Source of the DNA: Cytophagales bacterium
Lineage (GTDB): Bacteria; Bacteroidota; Bacteroidia; Cytophagales; 172606-1
DNA length: 64,000 bases
Direction: 5' to 3'
Assembly: GCA_030446715.1 (NCBI GenBank)
Contig: JAUJMU010000011.1
Coordinates: 63,503-127,502, forward strand
The position numbers were made by a program, and so were the translations under genes. Every line of letters starts with the position of its first letter. The stretch's first letter is position 1. This document shows, in pieces, positions 2,459-52,046 of the stretch. The notes beneath the pieces were generated by a model that had not been told where the DNA came from, made no database searches, and was given only the letters and a program-made list of their open reading frames with translations.

Positions 2459-5400
2459 ATGAGCGCACCTACCACCCACGGTATCCAGGAAGATTTCAAC
2501 ATACTGGATACAAAGGAACTGCTGCGGGTTCTTATGGAGATGAAGAACGGAAATTTCTCTGTTCGGATGCCCATCGACCACTACGGAGTCAGCGGCAAAA
2601 TCTGCGATACCCTCAACGAGATCATCGAGACCAACGAAATGATGGTCCATGAATTCATCCGCGCCGGCAATACCATTGGCAAGCAGGGCAAACTCAACCA
2701 GCGCCTGGAGTTGCCCAACTCCAAAGGCTCCTGGAAGACCGGCGTTGACGCGCTGAATACCCTGGTTTCAGACCTTGTGCATCCCACCATCGAAATTGCC
2801 CACGTAATCAGTTCGGTGGCCAGGGGAAATCTCTCCCAGCAAATGCCGCTGGAGGTAGAGGGCAATGCGCTGCAGGGCGAATTCCTGCGCATTGCCAACG
2901 AGGTAAACGACATGGTGGAGCAGCTCAACCTGTTTTCCCGCGAAGTAACCCGCGTGGCCCGGGAAGTAGGCTCGGAAGGTAAACTCGGCGGCCAGGCGGC
3001 AGTAAAAGGCGTGGGCGGCGTATGGAAAGACCTCACCGACTCGGTGAACCAGATGGCCGGCAACCTGACCAATCAGGTACGGAATATAGCCGAAGTAACC
3101 ACTGCCATTGCCAAGGGTGACCTCTCCAAAAAGATCACCGTCGATGCCCGGGGCGAATTGCAGGAAGTAAAAAACACCATTAACACGATGGTGGATCAGC
3201 TCAACTCATTTGCCTCGGAAGTAACCCGGGTGGCGCTGGAAGTAGGTACCGAAGGCCGTCTGGGCGGACAAGCCACCGTAAAAGGTGTAGGCGGTACGTG
3301 GAAAGATCTCACTGATTCGGTGAACCAGATGGCCGGCAACCTGACGGCTCAGGTCAGAAACATTGCCGGCGTGACCATCGCCGTGGCCAAGGGTGACTTG
3401 TCCCAGAAGATCACAGTGGACGCCAAGGGCGAACTTTTAGAACTCAAGAACACCATCAACACGATGGTGGACCAGCTCAACTCATTTTCTTCGGAAGTAA
3501 CCCGTGTAGCCCGCGAGGTAGGCTCGGAGGGGCAGCTGGGTGGTCAGGCCAACGTGCCGGGCGTGGGTGGAACGTGGAAGGACTTAACCGACTCGGTAAA
3601 CCGGATGGCCTCCAACCTCACTGACCAGGTGCGCAACATTGCCGACGTAACTACCGCCGTGGCAAAAGGTGACCTCTCCAAAGAAAATCACAGTGGACGC
3701 CAAGGGTGAACTTTTAGAACTCAAGAACACCATCAACACGATGGTGGATCAATTGAATTCCTTTGGCTCGGAAGTAACCCGCGTGGCGCTGGAAGTAGGT
3801 ACCGAAGGCCGTCTGGGCGGACAAGCCACCGTAAAAGGCGTGGGTGGCGTCTGGAAAGACCTCACGGATTCAGTAAATCAGATGGCTTCCAACCTTACTG
3901 ATCAGGTGCGCAATATTGCCGACGTTACGACTTCCGTAGCCAACGGTGACCTTTCAAGAAGATCACAGTGGACGTAAAAGGAGAGATGCTGGAGCTCAAG
4001 AACACCATCAACACGATGGTGGATCAGCTCAACTCCTTCGGCTCGGAAGTAACCCGCGTGGCGCTGGAAGTAGGTACGGAAGGAAAACTCGGTGGTCAGG
4101 CGAAAGTCCGCGGAGTAGGCGGTGTCTGGAAAGATCTCACTGATTCGGTGAACCAGATGGCCGGCAACCTGACGGCTCAGGTCAGAAACATTGCCGGCGT
4201 GACCATCGCCGTGGCAAAAGGTGATTTGTCCCAGAAGATCACAGTGGACGCCAAGGGTGAACTTTTAGAACTCAAGAACACCATCAACACGATGGTGGAC
4301 CAGCTCAACTCATTTTCTTCGGAAGTAACCCGTGTAGCCCGTGAAGTAGGCTCGGAGGGGCAGCTGGGTGGTCAGGCCAACGTGCCGGGCGTGGGTGGTA
4401 CGTGGAAGGACTTAACCGACTCGGTAAACCGGATGGCCTCCAACCTCACCGATCAGGTGCGCAACATTGCCGACGTAACTACCGCCGTGGCAAAAGGTGA
4501 CCTCTCCAAGAAAATCACTGTAGGTGTGGAAGGAGAGATGCTGGAACTCAAGAACACCATCAACACGATGGTGGACCAGCTCAACTCCTTCGGCTCGGAA
4601 GTAACCCGTGTAGCCCGCGAGGTAGGCTCGGAGGGGCAGTTAGGCGGTCAGGCCAACGTGCCGGGCGTGGGTGGTACGTGGAAGGACTTAACCGACTCGG
4701 TAAACCGGATGGCCTCCAACCTCACCGATCAGGTACGGAACATTGCCGACGTTGCCACCGCCATTGCCAAGGGTGACCTCTCCAAAAGATCACAGTGGAC
4801 GCCAAGGGCGAACTCTTGGAGCTTAAGAACACCATCAACACGATGGTGGACCAGCTGAACGCCTTTGGTTCTGAAGTAACGCGGGTGGCCCGCGAAGTAG
4901 GTACCGACGGTAAGCTTGGTGGCAGGCGCAGGTACTCGGGGTAGCCGGGGTCTGGAAGGATCTGACCGACTCCGTGAACCAGATGGCCGGCAACCTGACC
5001 GCCCAGCTCCGGAACATCGCCGAAGTAGCCATTGCCGTGGCTGACGGTGACTTGTCCAAGAAAATTACGGTAGACGTACGCGGGGAAATTCTGCAGTTAA
5101 AGGAGACCATCAACACGATGGTGGACCAGCTCCGGGTTTTGCCTCTGAAGTAACGCGGGTGGCCCGTGAAGTGGGTACGGACGGTAAACTCGGCGGTCAG
5201 GCCTTTGTGCCGGGCGTGGGTGGCGTCTGGAAAGATCTGACTGACTCCGTGAACCAGATGTCAGGCAACCTCACCGCCCAGGTGCGGAACATTGCCGAAG
5301 TGACCAAAGCCGTGGCCAGCGGTTACCTCTCCAAAACCGTGGTCATTGACGTGAAGGGTTAGATGATGGACCTGAAAAACACCATCAATACGATGGTGGA

Positions 5401-8400
5401 CCAGCTCAACTCCTTCGCGTTTGAAGTAACCCGGGTGGCGAGGGAAGTGGGTACGGAAGGAAAGCTCGGTGGCCAGGCGCAGGTAAAAGGCGTAGCCGGT
5501 ACGTGGAAAGACTTAACGGATTCGGTGAACCAGATGGCCTCCAACCTCACCGGTCAGGTGCGGGGCATCGCCAAGGTAGTGACCTCGGTAGCCAAGGGCA
5601 ACCTGAGGCAGAAGCTCTCCATCAATGCCCTGGGTGAACTGGCCCAATTGACGGATACCATCAACGAAATGATTGATACGCTGGCCGTATTTGCCGATCA
5701 GGTCACTACCGTAGCCCGCGAAGTGGGTGTGGAAGGACGGCTCGGTGGTCAGGCCAGCGTACCCGGCGCCTCCGGTACGTGGAAGGATCTTACGGAAAAC
5801 GTAAACCAGCTGGCGGCCAACCTGACCACGCAGGTACGTTCCATCTCCGAAGTTGCCTCCGCCGTAACCAAAGGTGACCTGACCCGTACCATCCGCGTGG
5901 ATGCCAAGGGTGAACTGGAAGCCCTGAAGGATACCATCAACCAGATGATTGCCAACCTGCGCGAAACGACCCTGCGGAACCAGGAGCAGGACTGGCTGAA
6001 GTCTAACCTGGCCAAGTTCACGCAGATGCTGCAGGGGCAGAAGGACCTCAATACGGTAACCAACCGCATCTTGTCCGAACTGGCACAGGTAGTGAAAGCC
6101 CATTACGGTGCTTTCTACATCCTGCGGCAGGACGATGAGCAGCAGAATGTAACGCTGAAATTATTTGCGGGCTACGCTTACCGCCCGGATGCCGGCATTA
6201 AAAGTGAATTTGCCATCGGCGAAGGGCTGGTGGGTCAGTGCGCCGTTGAGAAGGAGAGAATTATTCTCTCCAACGTGCCCGGTGACTACGTAAAAATCAG
6301 TTCCGGACTGGGCGAAGCTACGCCGCTGAACCTGATTGTACTGCCGGTACTTTTTGAAACCAACGTAAAAGCCGTAATCGAACTGGCCTCCTTTGAACTC
6401 TTCAACCAGACGCACCTCGACTTCCTGGAGCAGCTGACGGAAAGTATCGGTATCGTACTCAATACCATCGAAACCAACAGCCGTACGGAAGAACTGCTAG
6501 CCCAGTCGCAGTCCCTGACCGACGAACTGAAGCTTGCCAACGAGGAGCTGCAGGACAAAGCTTTCCTGCTGGTGAAGCAGAAAGAAGAGGTGGAAGCCAA
6601 AAACATGGAAGTGGAAGTAGCCCGCCGGTCGCTGGAAGAAAAAGCCGAGCAGCTCACGATTACTTCCAAATACAAGTCGGAGTTCCTCGCCAATATGTCG
6701 CACGAACTGCGGACGCCGCTGAACAGCTTGCTCATTCTGGCGCAGCAGCTTTTCGAAAACCCGGATGGCAACCTCAACGAAAAGCAGGTGCGTTTTGCCA
6801 GAACGATTCACTCCTGCGGCGATGACCTGCTGCAACTAATCAACGACATTCTGGATCTTTCCAAGATCGAATCCGGATTTATTTCGGCCGAGTTCCTGCC
6901 TGTCCGCTTCCGTGAGATCAGTTCGTTTGCCGAAACTACCTTCCGGCCCATTTCCGAAGCCAAGCACCTCAGGTTCGTGATTGATATTGAGGATAAGCTG
7001 CCGGAAATGATGGAAACGGACATTCAGCGACTCAATCAGATTCTCAAGAACCTCTTGTCCAACGCCTTTAAGTTTACGGAGAAGGGTGAAGTGAAGCTGC
7101 GCATCTGTAAAGCGATCCAGTGGAAGACCCGCCGCGATAGTCTGGACAGCGCCCAGGAAGTAGTAGCCTTTGCCATTTCGGATACCGGAATCGGTATATC
7201 AAAGGACAAACAGAATATCATATTCGAAGCATTCCAGCAGGCCGAAGGTTCTACCAGCCGCAAGTACGGCGGCACCGGTCTGGGCCTGTCCATCAGCCGC
7301 GGTCTGGCCGAACTGCTGGGTGGTACCATCGAGCTGGAGAGCCAGCCGGGCAAAGGCAGCGTGTTTACCCTCTATCTGCCGATGAAAGCCGACAGCGTTT
7401 CCCGCAAGGAAGAAGTCAGAAGTCTGCTTCAGGTAGACAACTTGTCGTCGTCTGACCTTGACCGCTCCCTGGTAAAAACCCTCAAATCGCAGGTGCTTTC
7501 CAACACCGGTCAGGACAGCCGCCATTCTGAAATGGTGAATGAGATGATCAACGAAACCGGCGACGACCGGGGTAGCATCCAGTCCAATGATAAAGTGCTG
7601 CTGGTGGTGGAAGACGATCTGCGTTTCGGCAAGATCATGCTCGACAAAGCGCACCAGTGGAACATGAAAGTAGTTATTGCGACCAGTTACGCGGAGGTAT
7701 TCAGTCTGGTGAATACGTACAATCCGGTAGCCGTTACCCTGGACGTGAAGCTGCCCGACAACAGCGGCTGGAAAATTCTGGACCTGTTCAAGAACGACCT
7801 CAACTTCCGCCACATTCCGGTTTATCTGATCTCGGGTGAGGAAAACCGTGCGCTGGCCTACAAGCGCGGAGCCCGTAACTTCCTGCTCAAGCCGCTGCGC
7901 AACGAAGACCTCGATCTGCTGTTTAAAGACATTGAAAGGTTCAGGGACAAAAAGCAGCGGACCCTGCTGCTGGTGGAAGACAACGAAATGGACAGTTCCA
8001 ACATCGCAAAGATGCTGCAGAACGACGACGTAAAGATCACCATTGCCGGTACCGGACAAAAGGCGCTGCAACTGCTGAAGAAAAAATCCTTTGACAGCGT
8101 GGTGATGGACTACATGCTGCCCGACATGAACGGTGCAGAACTGCTGAAGAAGATCAGTGCGCTCAACCGGCAGGAACTGACGCCGGTGATCGTCTATTCG
8201 GCCAAAGACTTTACCGGCCGCGAACTGAGCCAGGTGAAGCAGTCGGCCCGCAATGTGATTGTGAAGGATGTAAAATCGCTGGACCTGCTGCTGGAAGAGA
8301 TGACCATGCACCTGCACATCAACCACAAGAATCTGCCGGCCCAGCAACGCAAGCTGATCGAGAGCATCTACATGAAGGAAGATCTGCTGGTGGGCAAGAA

Positions 8401-8761
8401 CATTCTGATAGTGGACGACGACGTACGCAACCTGTTTGCCCTGACCACGGCATTTGAGCGGCACAACATCAATGCGATCACGGCGGAAAGCGGTCATGAG
8501 GCCATTCACATCCTCAACAGCCGCGATGACATAGACATGGTACTGATGGACATCATGATGCCGGAAATGGACGGCTACGAAACCACGCAGAAGATCCGCC
8601 GCGAAAACAAAAACAATGCACTTCCCATTATTGCCGTAACCGCCAAGGCCATGAAGGGCGACCGGCAGAAGTGTCTGGAAGCCGGTGCGTCGGATTACAT
8701 CACCAAACCCGTAAAAGTTGACCAGCTCCTTTCGCTGATGCGGATCTGGTTGTACAGGTAA
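2459..8761 (+). CDS. Poly-HAMP/GAF hybrid histidine kinase with three receivers (frame broken by indels)
   Basis: A cytosolic sensor kinase of fungal Nik1-like (group III) architecture, with no signal peptide or membrane helix. A diverged N-terminus is followed by an array of about eleven 92-residue (276-bp) HAMP units to about 5950, a GAF domain (about 6040-6470), a coiled coil, HisKA (SHELRTPLN; His codon 6701-6703), an HATPase domain (about 7020-7400) and three receivers (about 7590-7945, 7965-8300 and 8395-8755) with [15 protein letters not shown] and VLMDIMMP phosphorylation sites. HAMP arrays transmit stress signals by stacked conformational change. The frame is broken by +1 near 3681, -1 near 3955, 4785, 4923 and 5134, and a TAG at 5360-5362. 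The net shift is -3, so start and kinase part share a frame; repaired length is about 2,101 residues. All lesions fall in near-identical repeats. First of four co-directional signalling genes. Confidence 0.85.
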
Positions 8762-8765
8762 AATA

Positions 8766-8800
8766 GTTGTAAGTCGTAAGTCATGAGTCGTAAGTGAGTC
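8766..8800. repeat. Short word-repeat tract (GTAAGTC words)
   Basis: Loose tandem copies of AGTCGTAAGT and CATGAGTCGTAAGT directly after the poly-HAMP kinase stop codon. The same word occurs on the other strand near 38757-38768 and 38808-38819. Confidence 0.45.
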
Positions 8801-25173: not shown

Positions 25174-25208
25174 TTAAGTATTGAGACATGAGTATTTAGT
25201 ATTGAGCA
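25174..25208. repeat. Short word-repeat tract (TATTGAG words)
   Basis: Loose tandem copies of AGTATTGAG, GACATGAGTATT and TAGTATTGAG between the Uma2 gene stop and the ffh start. Same style as the tracts at 1393 and 8766. Confidence 0.45.
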
Positions 25209-25885
25209 CTGCCCCGGAGCAGTTCTGTCAGGGCCTGCATATTGGCTTTTTCGTCAAAAATAGCCCGGACCGGTACCAGAAAACCCGGCAGTACGTGCCC
25301 CGCCACCGTGCCATTGTTTGACTTCAGGACCAGCTGATAATTATTATCTTCCAGCACGTACTGCTCAACGATTTCTGCCTCAGGGTCAATGATCCAGTAC
25401 TCCCGGACGCCGTGAGCTTCATAATCCTGAAACTTTACACCCCGGTCCATCTTTTCAGTGGATCTGGAAAGCACTTCCACAACCCAGTCGGGGGCCGGAA
25501 ACAGCTTCTGGTCCTCCGTAAAGGCAGCGGCCTTTTCTTTAGAAAAGAAACAGATATCCGGTTCGTAATCGTTGCGGGTCAGGGAGATCATTATTTTCTC
25601 TATTCCCACAAAACCCGCATCATGTAGTGCGGCATACGTACTTATCAGCCGGTAAAGCATACCCGTTACAGCATTATGCCTTTTGGCTACGGGTGAATGC
25701 ACCAGTATCTCTCCATTGATAAATTCAGCCTTCATATTTTCATCAATAAAGTCGTAAAAAGCCATGCGGCGTTGCTTTTCATCAGCCAACGCCTTTTCCA
25801 GCCTTTCCACGTACAGGGCCAGCTTGGGTGATTGCAGTAACTTTTCAAGGATCGCTTCCATTGCTGATTGGTTATCAATATGCAA
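25196..25885 (-). CDS. Uma2 family (DUF820) putative endonuclease
   Basis: A 229-residue PD-(D/E)XK-fold protein. The characteristic EFINGEILVHSP segment (about 53-64), EPDICFF with the catalytic Asp (about 109), APDWVVEVLS (about 130-139) and the DYEAHGVREYWIIDPE motif are all present, so the nuclease core looks intact. Uma2 proteins are abundant and of unknown biological role. The N-terminal 45 residues form a helical extension. An in-frame ATG at 25861 is an alternative start. The stop lies inside the word-repeat tract. It is upstream of ffh on the same strand, but a functional link is not implied. Confidence 0.85.
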   Translation of the reverse strand: MHIDNQSAMEAILEKLLQSPKLALYVERLEKALADEKQRRMAFYDFIDENMKAEFINGEILVHSPVAKRHNAVTGMLYRLISTYAALHDAGFVGIEKIMISLTRNDYEPDICFFSKEKAAAFTEDQKLFPAPDWVVEVLSRSTEKMDRGVKFQDYEAHGVREYWIIDPEAEIVEQYVLEDNNYQLVLKSNNGTVAGHVLPGFLVPVRAIFDEKANMQALTELLRGSAQY

Positions 25886-35958: not shown

Positions 35959-36111
35959 GACCTGACCCTCCGGCCGGGCAAAACCAGCCGGATGCCTTTC
36001 CGGAACCGGACTACCGGCGACGATTCAGGTACCGAAGCAGAATCAAGTATAGATTTAAAATTCTGATGTACGGGCAGCATCCCTCTGCAAGTCAGATAGT
36101 TATCCAGTTTC

Positions 36112-36150
36112 ATTTAAAATTCAGAATTCACAATTTAAAATTGCGTAGCT
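36112..36150. repeat. Intergenic word tract (AATTTAAAATT words)
   Basis: ATTTAAAATTCAGAATTCA followed by CAATTTAAAATTGCGTAGC, just before the adaptor gene. A related tract stands before the TPR gene at 40992-41033, sharing AATTCACA and TTGCG-AGCT. Confidence 0.45.
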
Positions 36151-37699: not shown

Positions 37700-38713
37700 T
37701 TGATCACCAAAGAAAAACCGACATCTGCCGTAATTGCCGTAGTAGGCGGAGGAAGCTGGGCTACGGCCATTATCAAAATACTTACCGAAGGAAACGTACG
37801 CGTACACTGGTGGCTGCGCAATCAGGAAGATGCTGCCTACATCCGGCAGTACGGGCATAATCCGCATTACCTCAGTGATGTGCAGCTCAACCGGCGCAAG
37901 GTAAAGGTATGCTCCGGCATTGAAGAGGCTATAACCGGTACCACGCATGTGATCCTCGCGGTGCCGGCTGCTTTCGTGCAGAGTGCCCTTGCCGGTGTAT
38001 CGGCAGACCTGCTGGCCGGCAAAGTGGTGGTGTCGGCCATAAAAGGCATGATTCCGGAAAAGAACCTGCTGGTAACCGACTGGGTGGAAGCTGATTTCGG
38101 AGTGCCCGCTGAAAAAATCTGCGTTATTGCCGGGCCCTGCCACGCCGAAGAAGTAGCCCTTGAAAAACAATCTTACCTCACCATTGCTTCCACCGGAATG
38201 GATGAAGCAGAGGTAGTAGCAGAGCTTATGACCTGCCGCTACGTACAATCTTCGGCCCTCGACGATGTGTACGGCGTTGAATACTCGGCCGTGATGAAAA
38301 ACATCATTGCCCTTGCCTGCGGCATTACCCACGGACTGGGTTACGGCGATAATTTTCAGGCGGTGCTGGTTTCCAATGCCATGCAGGAAATCCGGCGGTT
38401 TGTGGACGCCGTCTACCCCAGAAACCGCGACCTCAGCGCCTCCGTTTACCTCGGCGACCTGCTGGTAACGGCCTATTCGCAGTTCAGCCGAAACCGGATG
38501 TTTGGCAGCATGATCGGCCGGGGGTACAGCGTGAAGTCGGCGCAGGTAGAAATGAACATGATTGCCGAAGGGTACTACGCCGTGAAAAGCATTCACGAAA
38601 TCAACCGGAAGCACCGCGTGCGGATGCCCATCACCGGAGCCGTATACCGCATCCTCTACGAAAAAGCCCCTCCCGGTCAGGAAATCAGCGCTCTGAAGAA
38701 AATGTTAAAATGA
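37700..38713 (+). CDS. gpsA: NAD(P)H-dependent glycerol-3-phosphate dehydrogenase
   Basis: A 337-residue enzyme reducing dihydroxyacetone phosphate to sn-glycerol 3-phosphate for phospholipid synthesis. The Rossmann motif VVGGGSWATAI lies at about 14-24, IAGPCHAEEVA near 146-156, the catalytic Lys in YSAVMKNIIAL (about 200), and RNRMFGSMIGRG near 270. The length fits a full GpsA. No ATG precedes the Rossmann motif; the TTG at 37700 (MITKEKPTS) gives the normal N-terminus. It stands alone after a terminator. Confidence 0.9.
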   Translation: MITKEKPTSAVIAVVGGGSWATAIIKILTEGNVRVHWWLRNQEDAAYIRQYGHNPHYLSDVQLNRRKVKVCSGIEEAITGTTHVILAVPAAFVQSALAGVSADLLAGKVVVSAIKGMIPEKNLLVTDWVEADFGVPAEKICVIAGPCHAEEVALEKQSYLTIASTGMDEAEVVAELMTCRYVQSSALDDVYGVEYSAVMKNIIALACGITHGLGYGDNFQAVLVSNAMQEIRRFVDAVYPRNRDLSASVYLGDLLVTAYSQFSRNRMFGSMIGRGYSVKSAQVEMNMIAEGYYAVKSIHEINRKHRVRMPITGAVYRILYEKAPPGQEISALKKMLK

Positions 38714-38745
38714 GAGGAGCGGGAAGTCAGGAGTGAGAAGCGAGA
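38714..38745. repeat. Intergenic word tract (GAGCGGGAAG/GAGTGAGAAG)
   Basis: Short loose repeats of GGAGCGGGAAGTCA and GGAGTGAGAAGCGAGAA directly after the gpsA stop codon. Same style as other word tracts in the window. Confidence 0.4.
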
Positions 38746-38772
38746 ATGTAACTCTCCCCTTACGACTTGTAC

Positions 38773-40860: not shown

Positions 40861-40991
40861 CTTTGTTTTACAGCCGGTCAACTGCTGGCTTTATCCGTCA
40901 AAAGCTCTTTTAAACATCTTAGTAAAAACAGATTCGTATTTTTATTGATCCGACTTTGGTTTTAAATCCTTATGAATCAAGACTTTGCGCA

Positions 40992-41033
40992 ATCATTCAA
41001 AATTTAAAATTCTCAATTCACAGTTGCGCAGCT
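40992..41033. repeat. Intergenic word tract (AAAATTTAAAATT words)
   Basis: ATTCAAAATTTAAAATTCTC followed by AATTCACAGTTGCGCAGCTC. Related to the tract at 36112-36150 in front of the efflux adaptor. Confidence 0.45.
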
Positions 41034-48824: not shown

Positions 48825-51800
48825 TCACGTAGCCAGCGAAGCTACTCTCTGTTCCGGATTTTGTACGGCATCCTTCCTGAGCGCCTGGAGCAGGATCTGG
48901 ACGGGGTGAAGGGCAGTTCTTTGGGTGGCGTCTCTGATCTGGTGGCGGCAGGAAGTGCCCGGGGCGCAGATGATCACCTCCTGCGGCTGCCTTCTCACGG
49001 TGGGAAAGAGCACCAGCTCACCGATCTGCTGAGAAATGTGGTAGTGCTCCTTTTCGTAGCCGAAAGAGCCGGCCATGCCGCAGCAACCGGAGGGAATGAG
49101 TTCCACCGAGTAGCCTTCCGGCAGGGAGAGGATCTGCTTGACGGGCACCATCGAGGAGAGCGCCTTCTGGTGGCAGTGGCCGTGGAGCTTGATGAGGCGT
49201 TTCCCGCCTGCAAACTGCTCTCTTTTTATATTTCCTGCTTTCAGCTCCCTTGCCAGAAACTCCTCGGTCAAAAGGCAGTTTTCTGCCAGTGCCTGAGCGG
49301 CAGGCCTGAGTTCCTGATCCACCAGCGAGAGGTACTCATCTCTGAAGGTGAGAATGGCCGAGGGTTCAATGCCTACCAGCGGAGCATCAGCGGTGATGAT
49401 GTCCCTGAGCAGCTCCACGTTCCTCTGGGCCAGCTTTTTTGCCTCCCTGACCAGCCCCTTGGAAAGATACGTTCTGCCGCTCTCAAGGTGGCGGGGTATT
49501 TCCACCACGTAGCCCAGTCCTTCCAAAAGTTCCACTGCCGCCCGTCCCACCTCCACGTCGTTGTAGTCAGTAAACTCGTCGCAGAACAGGTACACTTTCT
49601 TCAGACGGGAGACCGGAGACGGGAGACCGGAGACCGGAGCTGACGCCGGTTTTGCCTTGCCGCCTGCTGCTTGGTTCCCGTTTACTGCTTCTGTCTCCCG
49701 TCTCCCCTCTCCCGTCTTCCCTCTCTTTGCAAACCAGCTTCTCAGCGTGGTATCGTGCAAAAGGGGTATGCTTCTCTGGGGGGCAAAGCCGGTCAGCTGC
49801 CTGGCCAGCTTTGAGGTAAGCGGGTTGGTGAACACAAAGTTGTAGAGCCACGGGGCAAGAGAGGCCAGCTTGTTCAAGCGCGTGAAGTTTGCCACCAGCC
49901 AGCTTCTCAGGGGCACCCCGCGGGCATCGTAGTAATGCTGCTGCCACTCGGCCTTGAGCTTTGCCACGTCCACGTTGGAGGGACACTCGGCCCTGCAGCC
50001 CTTACACGATATACACAGATCCATCACCTCCTTTATCTCCCCGTGCGAGAAGGGATTCTCCCGCTCTGAGCGGGTGAGCATCTCTCTGAGCATGTTCGCC
50101 CTTGCCCTTGTCGTGTCGCGCTCATCTTTGGTGGCCATATAAGAAGGACACATCGTCCCGCCCATCAGGTGACTCTTGCGGCAGTCCCCTGAGCCGCTGC
50201 AGGCTTCGGCCATGCGGAGCACGCCACCTTTTTCTGAAAAATCAAACACCGTTTTGGGTCCGGAGGTGGCCTGGCCGGGTGTATACCGCAGGTGGTGGTT
50301 CATCGGCGGGGTGTCGACGATCTTGCCGGGGTTGAAAATGCCCTGCGGGTCAAACAGCGCCTTTACCTGCCGGAACAGCCCGTAGTTGTGTTCACCCACC
50401 ATGTAGGGGATGAACTCCCCCCGCAGCCGGCCATCGCCGTGCTCCCCGCTCAGGCTGCCGCCGTATTTCTTCACCAGTTGGGCAGTTTCGGCCAGCACCT
50501 GCCGGAACAGGGCATTTCCCTCCGTGGTTTTCAGATTAATCATAGGCTCCACGTGGAGCTCGCCAGCACCCGCGTGGGCGTACATGGAGTACCGCAGGCC
50601 ATGCTTTTGCAGCAAGGCTTCCAGTTCCTGAATATAATCGGGCAACACCTGCACATCCACGGCGCAGTCTTCAATCAGATTGACCGGCTGCGTATCGCCA
50701 ATGATATTGCGGATCAGGCCCAGGCCCGCTTTCCGCACGTCCCACACCATGCGGGTATCAGCGCCATAGATCACCGGGAAGGCATAGCCAAGGCCGGCTG
50801 CCTGTAATCCGGCCGTAAGGCGGCGCGTAGTTTCCTGAATTTCTTCCTTGGTTTGGGCCGTAAACTCCACCATCAGAACCGCCCCAGGGTCGCCCTCAAT
50901 AAAGAACCGGTTCTTGTGGTACTCCGGGTGGTCTTTGGTAAAATTGAGAATGTACCGGTCCACCAGTTCGGAAGCGCCGGGTTTGTACCTGACGGCAACC
51001 AGATTGGCCAGCAACGACTCCCGGATGGTGTTGCAGTGAATGCACATGACCCCGATCTCCTTCGGCGGCAGCGGAATCAGGTTCAGTCTGATCTCCGTCA
51101 CCATACACAGTGTTCCTTCTGATCCGGTGATCAGCTTGCAGAGGTTGAAAAAAGCACCATTCTCAGAAAATGGCTGCAGGGCCAGCATCTCGTCGAGGGC
51201 GTAGCCGGTATTGCGGCGGGTTACGGTTTTCTTCGGAAAGTGGCTGATGATTTCGTGCTGGTTGGCCGGCTGGCTCAGCATCTGAATCAATTGCAGGTAA
51301 ATTTCTTTTTCCAAAGGGCTCGCCACGCCAATGCCGTTGCATTTCGCTTCCAGTTCCTGTGCGGAAAGTGGATGAAAGATTGCTTCGGTGCCGTCGCTCA
51401 GCAGGGCTTTCAGTTCGATCACGTGGTCACGGGTTGCCCCGTAAATAACCGAATGGAGGCCGCAGGAGTTGTTGCCGACCATGCCCCCGATCATGGCGCG
51501 GTTGGCAGTGGAGGTTTCCGGACCAAACTGCAGGCCGTGCTCTCTGAGAAACAGGTTCAGCTCGTCCCTGACCACGCCCGGCTCCACGCGCACCCATCTT
51601 TCCTCTGCATTCAGCTCCAGAATGCGGTTCAGGTGCTTGCCCGTATCCACCACGATGCCCGCTCCCACCACCTGACCGGCCAGCGAAGTACCGGCCGCCC
51701 TTGGAATGAGGGAAGTTTTGTGCGTGCGGGCAAAGGCGATCAGCTTCCCGAGGTCGTCTTTGGTGCGGGGAATGGCTACTGCCTGCGGCATTTCCCGGTA

Positions 51801-51898
51801 GGCTGAAGCATCCGTGGCGTAAGCGTACGCATCGTGGAATCGTAATACAGGTTGCCTTTCAGCTGAGAAGCTAATGTACGGAGGTGATGGATGGTCAT
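48825..51898 (-). CDS. FAD-linked oxidase/Fe-S protein (D-lactate dehydrogenase-like, frame broken by 1-bp deletion)
   Basis: A fused flavin and iron-sulfur dehydrogenase of about 1,024 residues. An N-terminal PCMH FAD domain (SLIPRAAGTSLAGQVVG; NRAMIGGMVGNNSCGLHS) and FAD-oxidase C domain (SGEHGDGRLRGEF) are followed by Fe-S motifs (CSGSGDCRKSHLMG..MCPSY; CISCKGCRAECPS) and CCG domains (HGHCHQKAL; PSGCCGMAGSFG). These enzymes oxidise D-lactate or another 2-hydroxy acid at the membrane. The start is the ATG at 51898 (MTIHHLRT). One base is missing near 51822: the frame reads MRTL then needs one more T to give YATDASAYREMP. A 126-bp inverted-repeat-like insert (49603-49728) adds about 40 residues between the Fe-S and CCG parts without breaking the frame. 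Confidence 0.88.
49603..49728. repeat. In-frame inverted word-repeat insert within the dehydrogenase gene
   Basis: The ends are GGGAGACCGGAGACGGGAGA (49608-49627) and the inverse-type CTGTCTCCCGTCTCCCCTCT (49691-49710), with about 50 bp between. Length is about 126 bp (42 codons). It translates to a Lys/Pro/Gly/Arg-rich linker at a domain boundary. Confidence 0.5.
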
Positions 51899-52046
51899 GG
51901 ATGAAATACAGGGTCCCGGGCAAAATAAATAAGGCAAAAGCACCCCTGCACATAGTTAACATTTTGCCCGTAGAAATGATTGCTGCAAAGACAAAAAACT
52001 GCCTCCCGCCCCGAACGGGCAGGATGGCGGCCATGCGGAAGTGATA

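Follow-up and report, generated by a model that had tools for sequence, protein, structure and literature searches.

Intergenic hairpins in many copies are familiar from REP and REPIN elements with their RAYT transposases. The arrays described here share that many-copy intergenic hairpin form but, among 11 genomes, show no clear link to the Y1 transposase: PF01797 (RAYT/Y1 transposase) is present in eight of the 11, both with and without arrays, and for lack of correlation in these 11 RAYT is an unlikely mover. Palindromes inside proteins are known from the Rickettsia palindromic elements (RPE), reportedly the subject of Ogata et al. 2000. According to the accessible part of the source, RPE lie in frame in unrelated protein genes whose products apparently work (PMC10969869). 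Our case resembles them in that unrelated genes of a single genome, two in G226, carry such elements in frame. RPE differ in being sequence families of ~150 bp, set apart by description from the 7-nt array arms found here; the word of our element changes between genomes and one linker is struck repeatedly.

Two systems of heptamer arrays are closer in anatomy. The GGGAATC heptameric repeats of Xanthomonas are degenerate 7-nt arrays in many copies, ~90% intergenic, located close behind the upstream ORF, often as two convergent inverted arrays, and intragenic in a minority (PMC4692102, available portion). Imperfect 7-nt tandem units and convergent inverted pairs recur in our target, and the arrays of its own genome are mostly intergenic as well, 21 of 51 having a stop codon no more than 20 nt away. 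The unit is different (GGGAATC / GGGANTN there, GGGAGAC and others here), as is the phylum, and the portion of PMC4692102 available describes neither in-frame linkers nor recurrence at one site. The TAACTGA repeats of Beggiatoaceae, Cyanobacteria and some Bacteroidetes are likewise mostly intergenic 7-nt arrays, with a few inside ORFs, there at non-conserved places or protein edges (PMC4679880, available portion). In period, location and some Bacteroidetes hosts they resemble our element; in contrast to it, they use a single word and are nearly always direct, with one indirect repeat in the genome treated in that portion of the text. Palindromes read in frame are thus already published for Rickettsia (RPE), and inverted pairs of heptamer arrays for Xanthomonas. 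What appears new is that the two are combined and that unrelated repeats have used a single interdomain linker again and again; a search by title and start of abstract, with most subscription papers outside its reach, found no paper on inverted heptamer arrays inside Bacteroidota proteins.

The element and its host gene

Positions 49603-49728 of the window, the whole 64,000-nucleotide stretch of DNA analysed, consist of two imperfect arrays of 7-bp period around a spacer, the first of GGGAGAC type and the second its reverse complement (Table 1). Tandem Repeats Finder reports period-7/14 arrays over exactly the two arm intervals, and the inversion between the arms extends over 30 nt at 87% complementarity with 55 nt between them. 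When lags 4-15 were scanned over the window, more than one match was obtained only for lags 7 and 14. At two mismatches or fewer, GGGAGACNGGAGAC matches the window seven times against 1.36 expected, a count reached by 0 of 100 shuffled windows, and six of the seven matches fall within the element. Read in the coding (-) orientation the first array is the downstream, C-rich arm. For the mRNA of the element a strong hairpin is predicted, with a folding energy of -64.7 kcal/mol (z = -5.8 relative to 200 shuffles). The spacer has no significant match in its own genome except its duplicate copy. The window also holds weak heptamer arrays of other words at 8760-8800, 25174-25211, 36101-36148, 38712-38746 and 40990-41029, all five between genes or at ORF edges by partly checked gene calls. 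At 2912-5563 a 276-bp unit is repeated in tandem across several called ORFs (9.6 copies, 76% match); by eye, it may be HAMP-like.

Table 1. Positions in the window of the repeat element, its parts and its host gene.
Feature	Position	Strand	Remark
First heptamer array, AGACGGGAGACCGG units	49603..49639	+	G-rich 5' arm on + strand
Spacer between arms	49640..49692		
Second array, GTCTCCC units	49693..49725	+	Reverse complement of first array
In-frame interdomain linker, predicted disordered	49603..49728	-	~Residues 770-811 of 1069-aa ORF
YdiJ-like FAD/Fe-S dehydrogenase gene	48825..52034	-	1069-aa ORF

In the host ORF an FAD part is fused to a 4Fe-4S part and, at the C terminus, to a GlpC/CCG-like part (Pfam domains FAD_binding_4, FAD-oxidase_C and Fer4), and the element sits between the Fe-S and the CCG parts, with no stop anywhere across it. 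The preliminary description had proposed an inverted word-repeat insert in frame inside a dehydrogenase, and the Tandem Repeats Finder arrays, the inverted arms and the open ORF bear this out. Homology of the ORF begins near codon 72, and its true start is uncertain. The best NCBIfam match is YdiJ, D-2-hydroxyglutarate dehydrogenase (NF049975), at 607 bits, below the equivalog cut-off of 1350 bits; the name is therefore limited to YdiJ-like. An AlphaFold2 model built from 43 rows has a mean pLDDT of 87, and internally the pLDDT drops below 50 only at residues 707-737 of 998, within the element. A sequence search for solved structures, at E up to 1e-10, gave none that covers the fusion as a whole. 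The dehydrogenase with its array linker is presumably still active.

The gene is present twice. Window 48880-51821 corresponds to G000:C2:222236-225177 with 2941 of 2942 bases identical, the two copies having different flanks on different contigs and an identical element; since both carry it, the genome offers no empty twin for comparison. This may be a recent duplication, gene conversion or an assembly artefact, confined to the conserved coding part. As for the element itself, an assembly artefact is unlikely given its identity in two gene copies on different contigs, and a converted or wrongly resolved repeat might still underlie the two identical copies.

Heptamer arrays across the genome

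The words singled out in the preliminary description recur genome-wide: at one mismatch or fewer, GGGAGACNGGAGAC has 44 matches in the 6.43-Mb genome against two for the reversed pattern. At E up to 10, BLAST of the element gave 53 matches, mostly short pieces of the arms, and at the 20 match places that we read the arrays lie mostly beside or between genes, several with the layout of array, spacer and inverted array. In a sample of 464 kb (the window and 20 further stretches of 20 kb each), 31 lag-7 matches were found at 19/28, one of them a run of N. The remaining 30 arrays comprise 23 that are intergenic, four within the outermost 3% of an ORF, one in a doubtful 98-aa ORF and the two arms of the target. 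Their words vary within the genome (AGTGGTA, AATTGAG, GGGAGAC, GTTATTG and others). The looser threshold of 18/28 yielded 51 arrays, the set with the 21 near stop codons mentioned above; for 18 of them an inverted partner was found that scores above 30 random regions. Seven lie inside ORFs: two are the target arms, and of the other five, in our judgement, three lie in spurious ORFs, one is a chance match and one falls in an erroneous N-terminal extension, so that "intergenic only" depends here on crude gene calling. The dehydrogenase, in its two near-identical copies, is the only firm in-frame case in this genome. The GGGAGAC words of the element belong to a genome-wide, almost always intergenic array family. 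As to the suggestion that such words are otherwise seen only between genes, the intergenic GGGAGAC copies are found elsewhere in the genome; the window has no other GGGAGAC array between genes, and its other lag-7 arrays use other words.

The same junction in homologous dehydrogenases

A match to the dehydrogenase is present in 35 of 39 related genomes, and at E up to 1e-100 in 183 of 291 genomes of the order. Eighty named homologue loci (79 distinct) were taken in as best matches to the query profile, not as a random draw. Of 199 loci, three lack the linker on one side; the other 196 gave linkers, 184 of them distinct. G001 has no linker on its matched contigs. Between fixed anchors the median linker length is 22 residues where arrays are absent and 42 where they are present, and our own has 52 against 18-26 in array-free members of the same family. 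The net gain is hence ~26-34 residues with some original linker sequence replaced, so that of the expected clean gap of ~40 residues the lengthening stands and the cleanness does not.

Lag-7 arrays at 18/28 are found in 14 of 184 distinct linkers as compared with three of 2024 control pieces from the same genes (Fisher p 2.7e-13). The enrichment persists without the 20 loci picked for length (11 of 164, p 9e-11) and at 20/28 (10 of 184 linkers versus 0 of 2024 control pieces). Every other lag from 4 to 19 gives 0-2 linkers at 18/28, except the harmonic 14 (nine); lags 6, 9 and 12 give 0, 1 and 0. A period of 7, with its harmonic 14, and not of 6, 9 or 12, indicates that the repeat arises in DNA and not as protein repeats, and drift of a protein-level repeat was rejected because 7 is no multiple of three. 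The frame is kept: a frameshift or stop occurs in 0 of 184 distinct linkers.

With slightly wider linker edges, 15 array linkers are counted in 13 genomes, seven genera and four families (by genus and family labels). Only one of the 79 distinct named loci, that of Dyadobacter luteus, has an array linker, which argues that the feature is patchy. Array linkers often share the array, spacer and inverted-array layout, and their words differ from genome to genome, even within one genus. Our own copy has no near-identical empty site to compare with; in its nearest genus relative, G002, both gene copies have arrays, of another word. In G007 one gene copy has a heptamer array and the other a GC-rich palindrome, CCCCGGCCCCTCCCC, which has 103 pattern matches in that genome against four for the control, 22 against one in the genome of the window and 0 in G003, which carries the same genus label as G007. 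The linker of G123 is a palindrome with many further copies elsewhere, 87-92% identical. Three species of genus g43 have three different linker fillings between flanks that are 80-84% identical. Two linkers (L192 and L279) look by eye like translations of palindromes, and another (L271, from G074) is an 85-residue filling without heptamer signal.

The preliminary description regarded similar linkers in many genera as speaking against an inserted repeat. That objection holds only in part: a similar build does occur in several genera, but with words that differ between genomes, which points to repeated independent colonisation rather than to an ancestral linker; the entry of an intergenic repeat into this linker appears to be no one-off. 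Its proposal of a normally intergenic repeat at a tolerant domain boundary agrees with the intergenic family, with the array-free state of most homologues (170 of 184) and with the predicted low-confidence segment. The linker could instead be a fossil intergenic region captured on fusion of two genes, as an array followed by an inverted array before the second part resembles the intergenic regions of this genome. Against such a capture, short-linker versions of the fused gene are common throughout Bacteroidota and also outside that phylum, and the arrays differ between genomes; we hold it to be extremely improbable and rejected it on the array-free majority of fused homologues.

Other genomes, a second protein and the origin of the arrays

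Array density differs between genomes. Five without an array in the linkers read (G003, G004, G034, G271 and G277) gave 0 lag-7 matches in 60-100 kb each, and G226 has 27 arrays per 100 kb in a 60-kb sample. A link between array density and linker arrays is suggestive only, since G062 and G235, with linker arrays, have only ~1 per 100 kb, and G175 and G015, without them, have 1.7 and 2.5. In G226 a 1168-aa FG-GAP/UnbV protein (L305:1736-5239) contains in-frame heptamer arrays at three places, one of them a clean insertion of 31 residues relative to G049 and G283, the other two differing in length by only a few residues. Inspected by eye, this one clean comparison showed no evident target-site duplication of the kind that marks a MITE. 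A relative of this protein in G194 shows another insert at one array site. A hydrolase match (L053), at first counted as a second in-frame case, was dropped as its motif looks ordinary, presumably a normal hydrolase motif.

The loop-rich FG-GAP protein also bears on whether the hairpin is kept for a role in the mRNA, slowing the ribosome between domains or shaping decay. The strength of the predicted hairpin and its repeated occurrence at one interdomain junction would suit such a role, which we consider very unlikely: so many homologous linkers are array-free, some array linkers (L217, L252) have low stem scores, and the FG-GAP case points to tolerance.

We are confident, if short of certain, that the element is an in-frame member of an intergenic family of heptamer-array hairpins and that the junction has been colonised independently many times. 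In this family a G-rich array, built of degenerate 7-nt units, is followed across a short spacer by its reverse complement. Such a hairpin would have joined the gene at the flexible Fe-S/CCG junction and would simply be translated as a disordered, length-tolerant linker, in which selection would demand only an open frame. The same junction would have been colonised many times in the order that holds Dyadobacter and Microscilla, the repeat family in each case being one of the genome concerned. Non-coding repeats would then become protein sequence repeatedly at one defined place, so that the steps by which junk DNA turns into a linker could be counted directly. The case also brings to light 7-nt hairpin arrays as a class that has received little study in Bacteroidota and that turns over fast enough to be traced from species to species.

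We infer that copies arrived as DNA events, by insertion or by local template-switching plus slippage, and "inserted" is used in that sense. Nothing may in fact have moved in: the arrays could form on site, in a linker free of constraint, through slippage during replication and template-switching at hairpins. This concerns the arrival step only, overlaps with the explanation preferred above and strikes us as possible but rather doubtful. In G226, G283 and G058 the linker changes little in length while its sequence becomes array, and with an array in place of linker sequence in several genomes local conversion fits as well as insertion. The arms in G226, 15 of 19 arrays having an inverted partner, are often near-perfect complements, unit variants included (match scores up to 40); variants matching in order are what hairpin-templated copying would give, and these matched arms favour copying between arms. 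The difference in words between genomes also suits formation on site. On the other side, the same words occur at many unrelated places of one genome, the FG-GAP protein shows its clean 31-residue gain, and the truly multi-copy, different palindromes in the linkers of G007 and G123 argue that repeats do arrive there from elsewhere.

We put forward only tentatively that heptamer-array hairpins are an element class defined by layout, repeatedly made by copying and writing in-frame linkers and loops. The class would be marked by the 7-nt period, the G-rich arm first and arms copied from each other; the copying process would keep making arrays in these bacteria, with the dehydrogenase junction as a standing recorder. 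Among the 100 matches listed of 121 in G062, 20 of 21 neighbouring pairs have the G-rich arm first, none is reversed and one is same-strand; strand order alone was used, the backwards control pattern being nearly the same array and uninformative. Judged by the base skew of the first arm, this order is kept less strictly than in these G062 matches, the G-rich arm coming first in seven of eight pairs in the genome of the window and in six of eight in G226, with one C-rich first arm in each.
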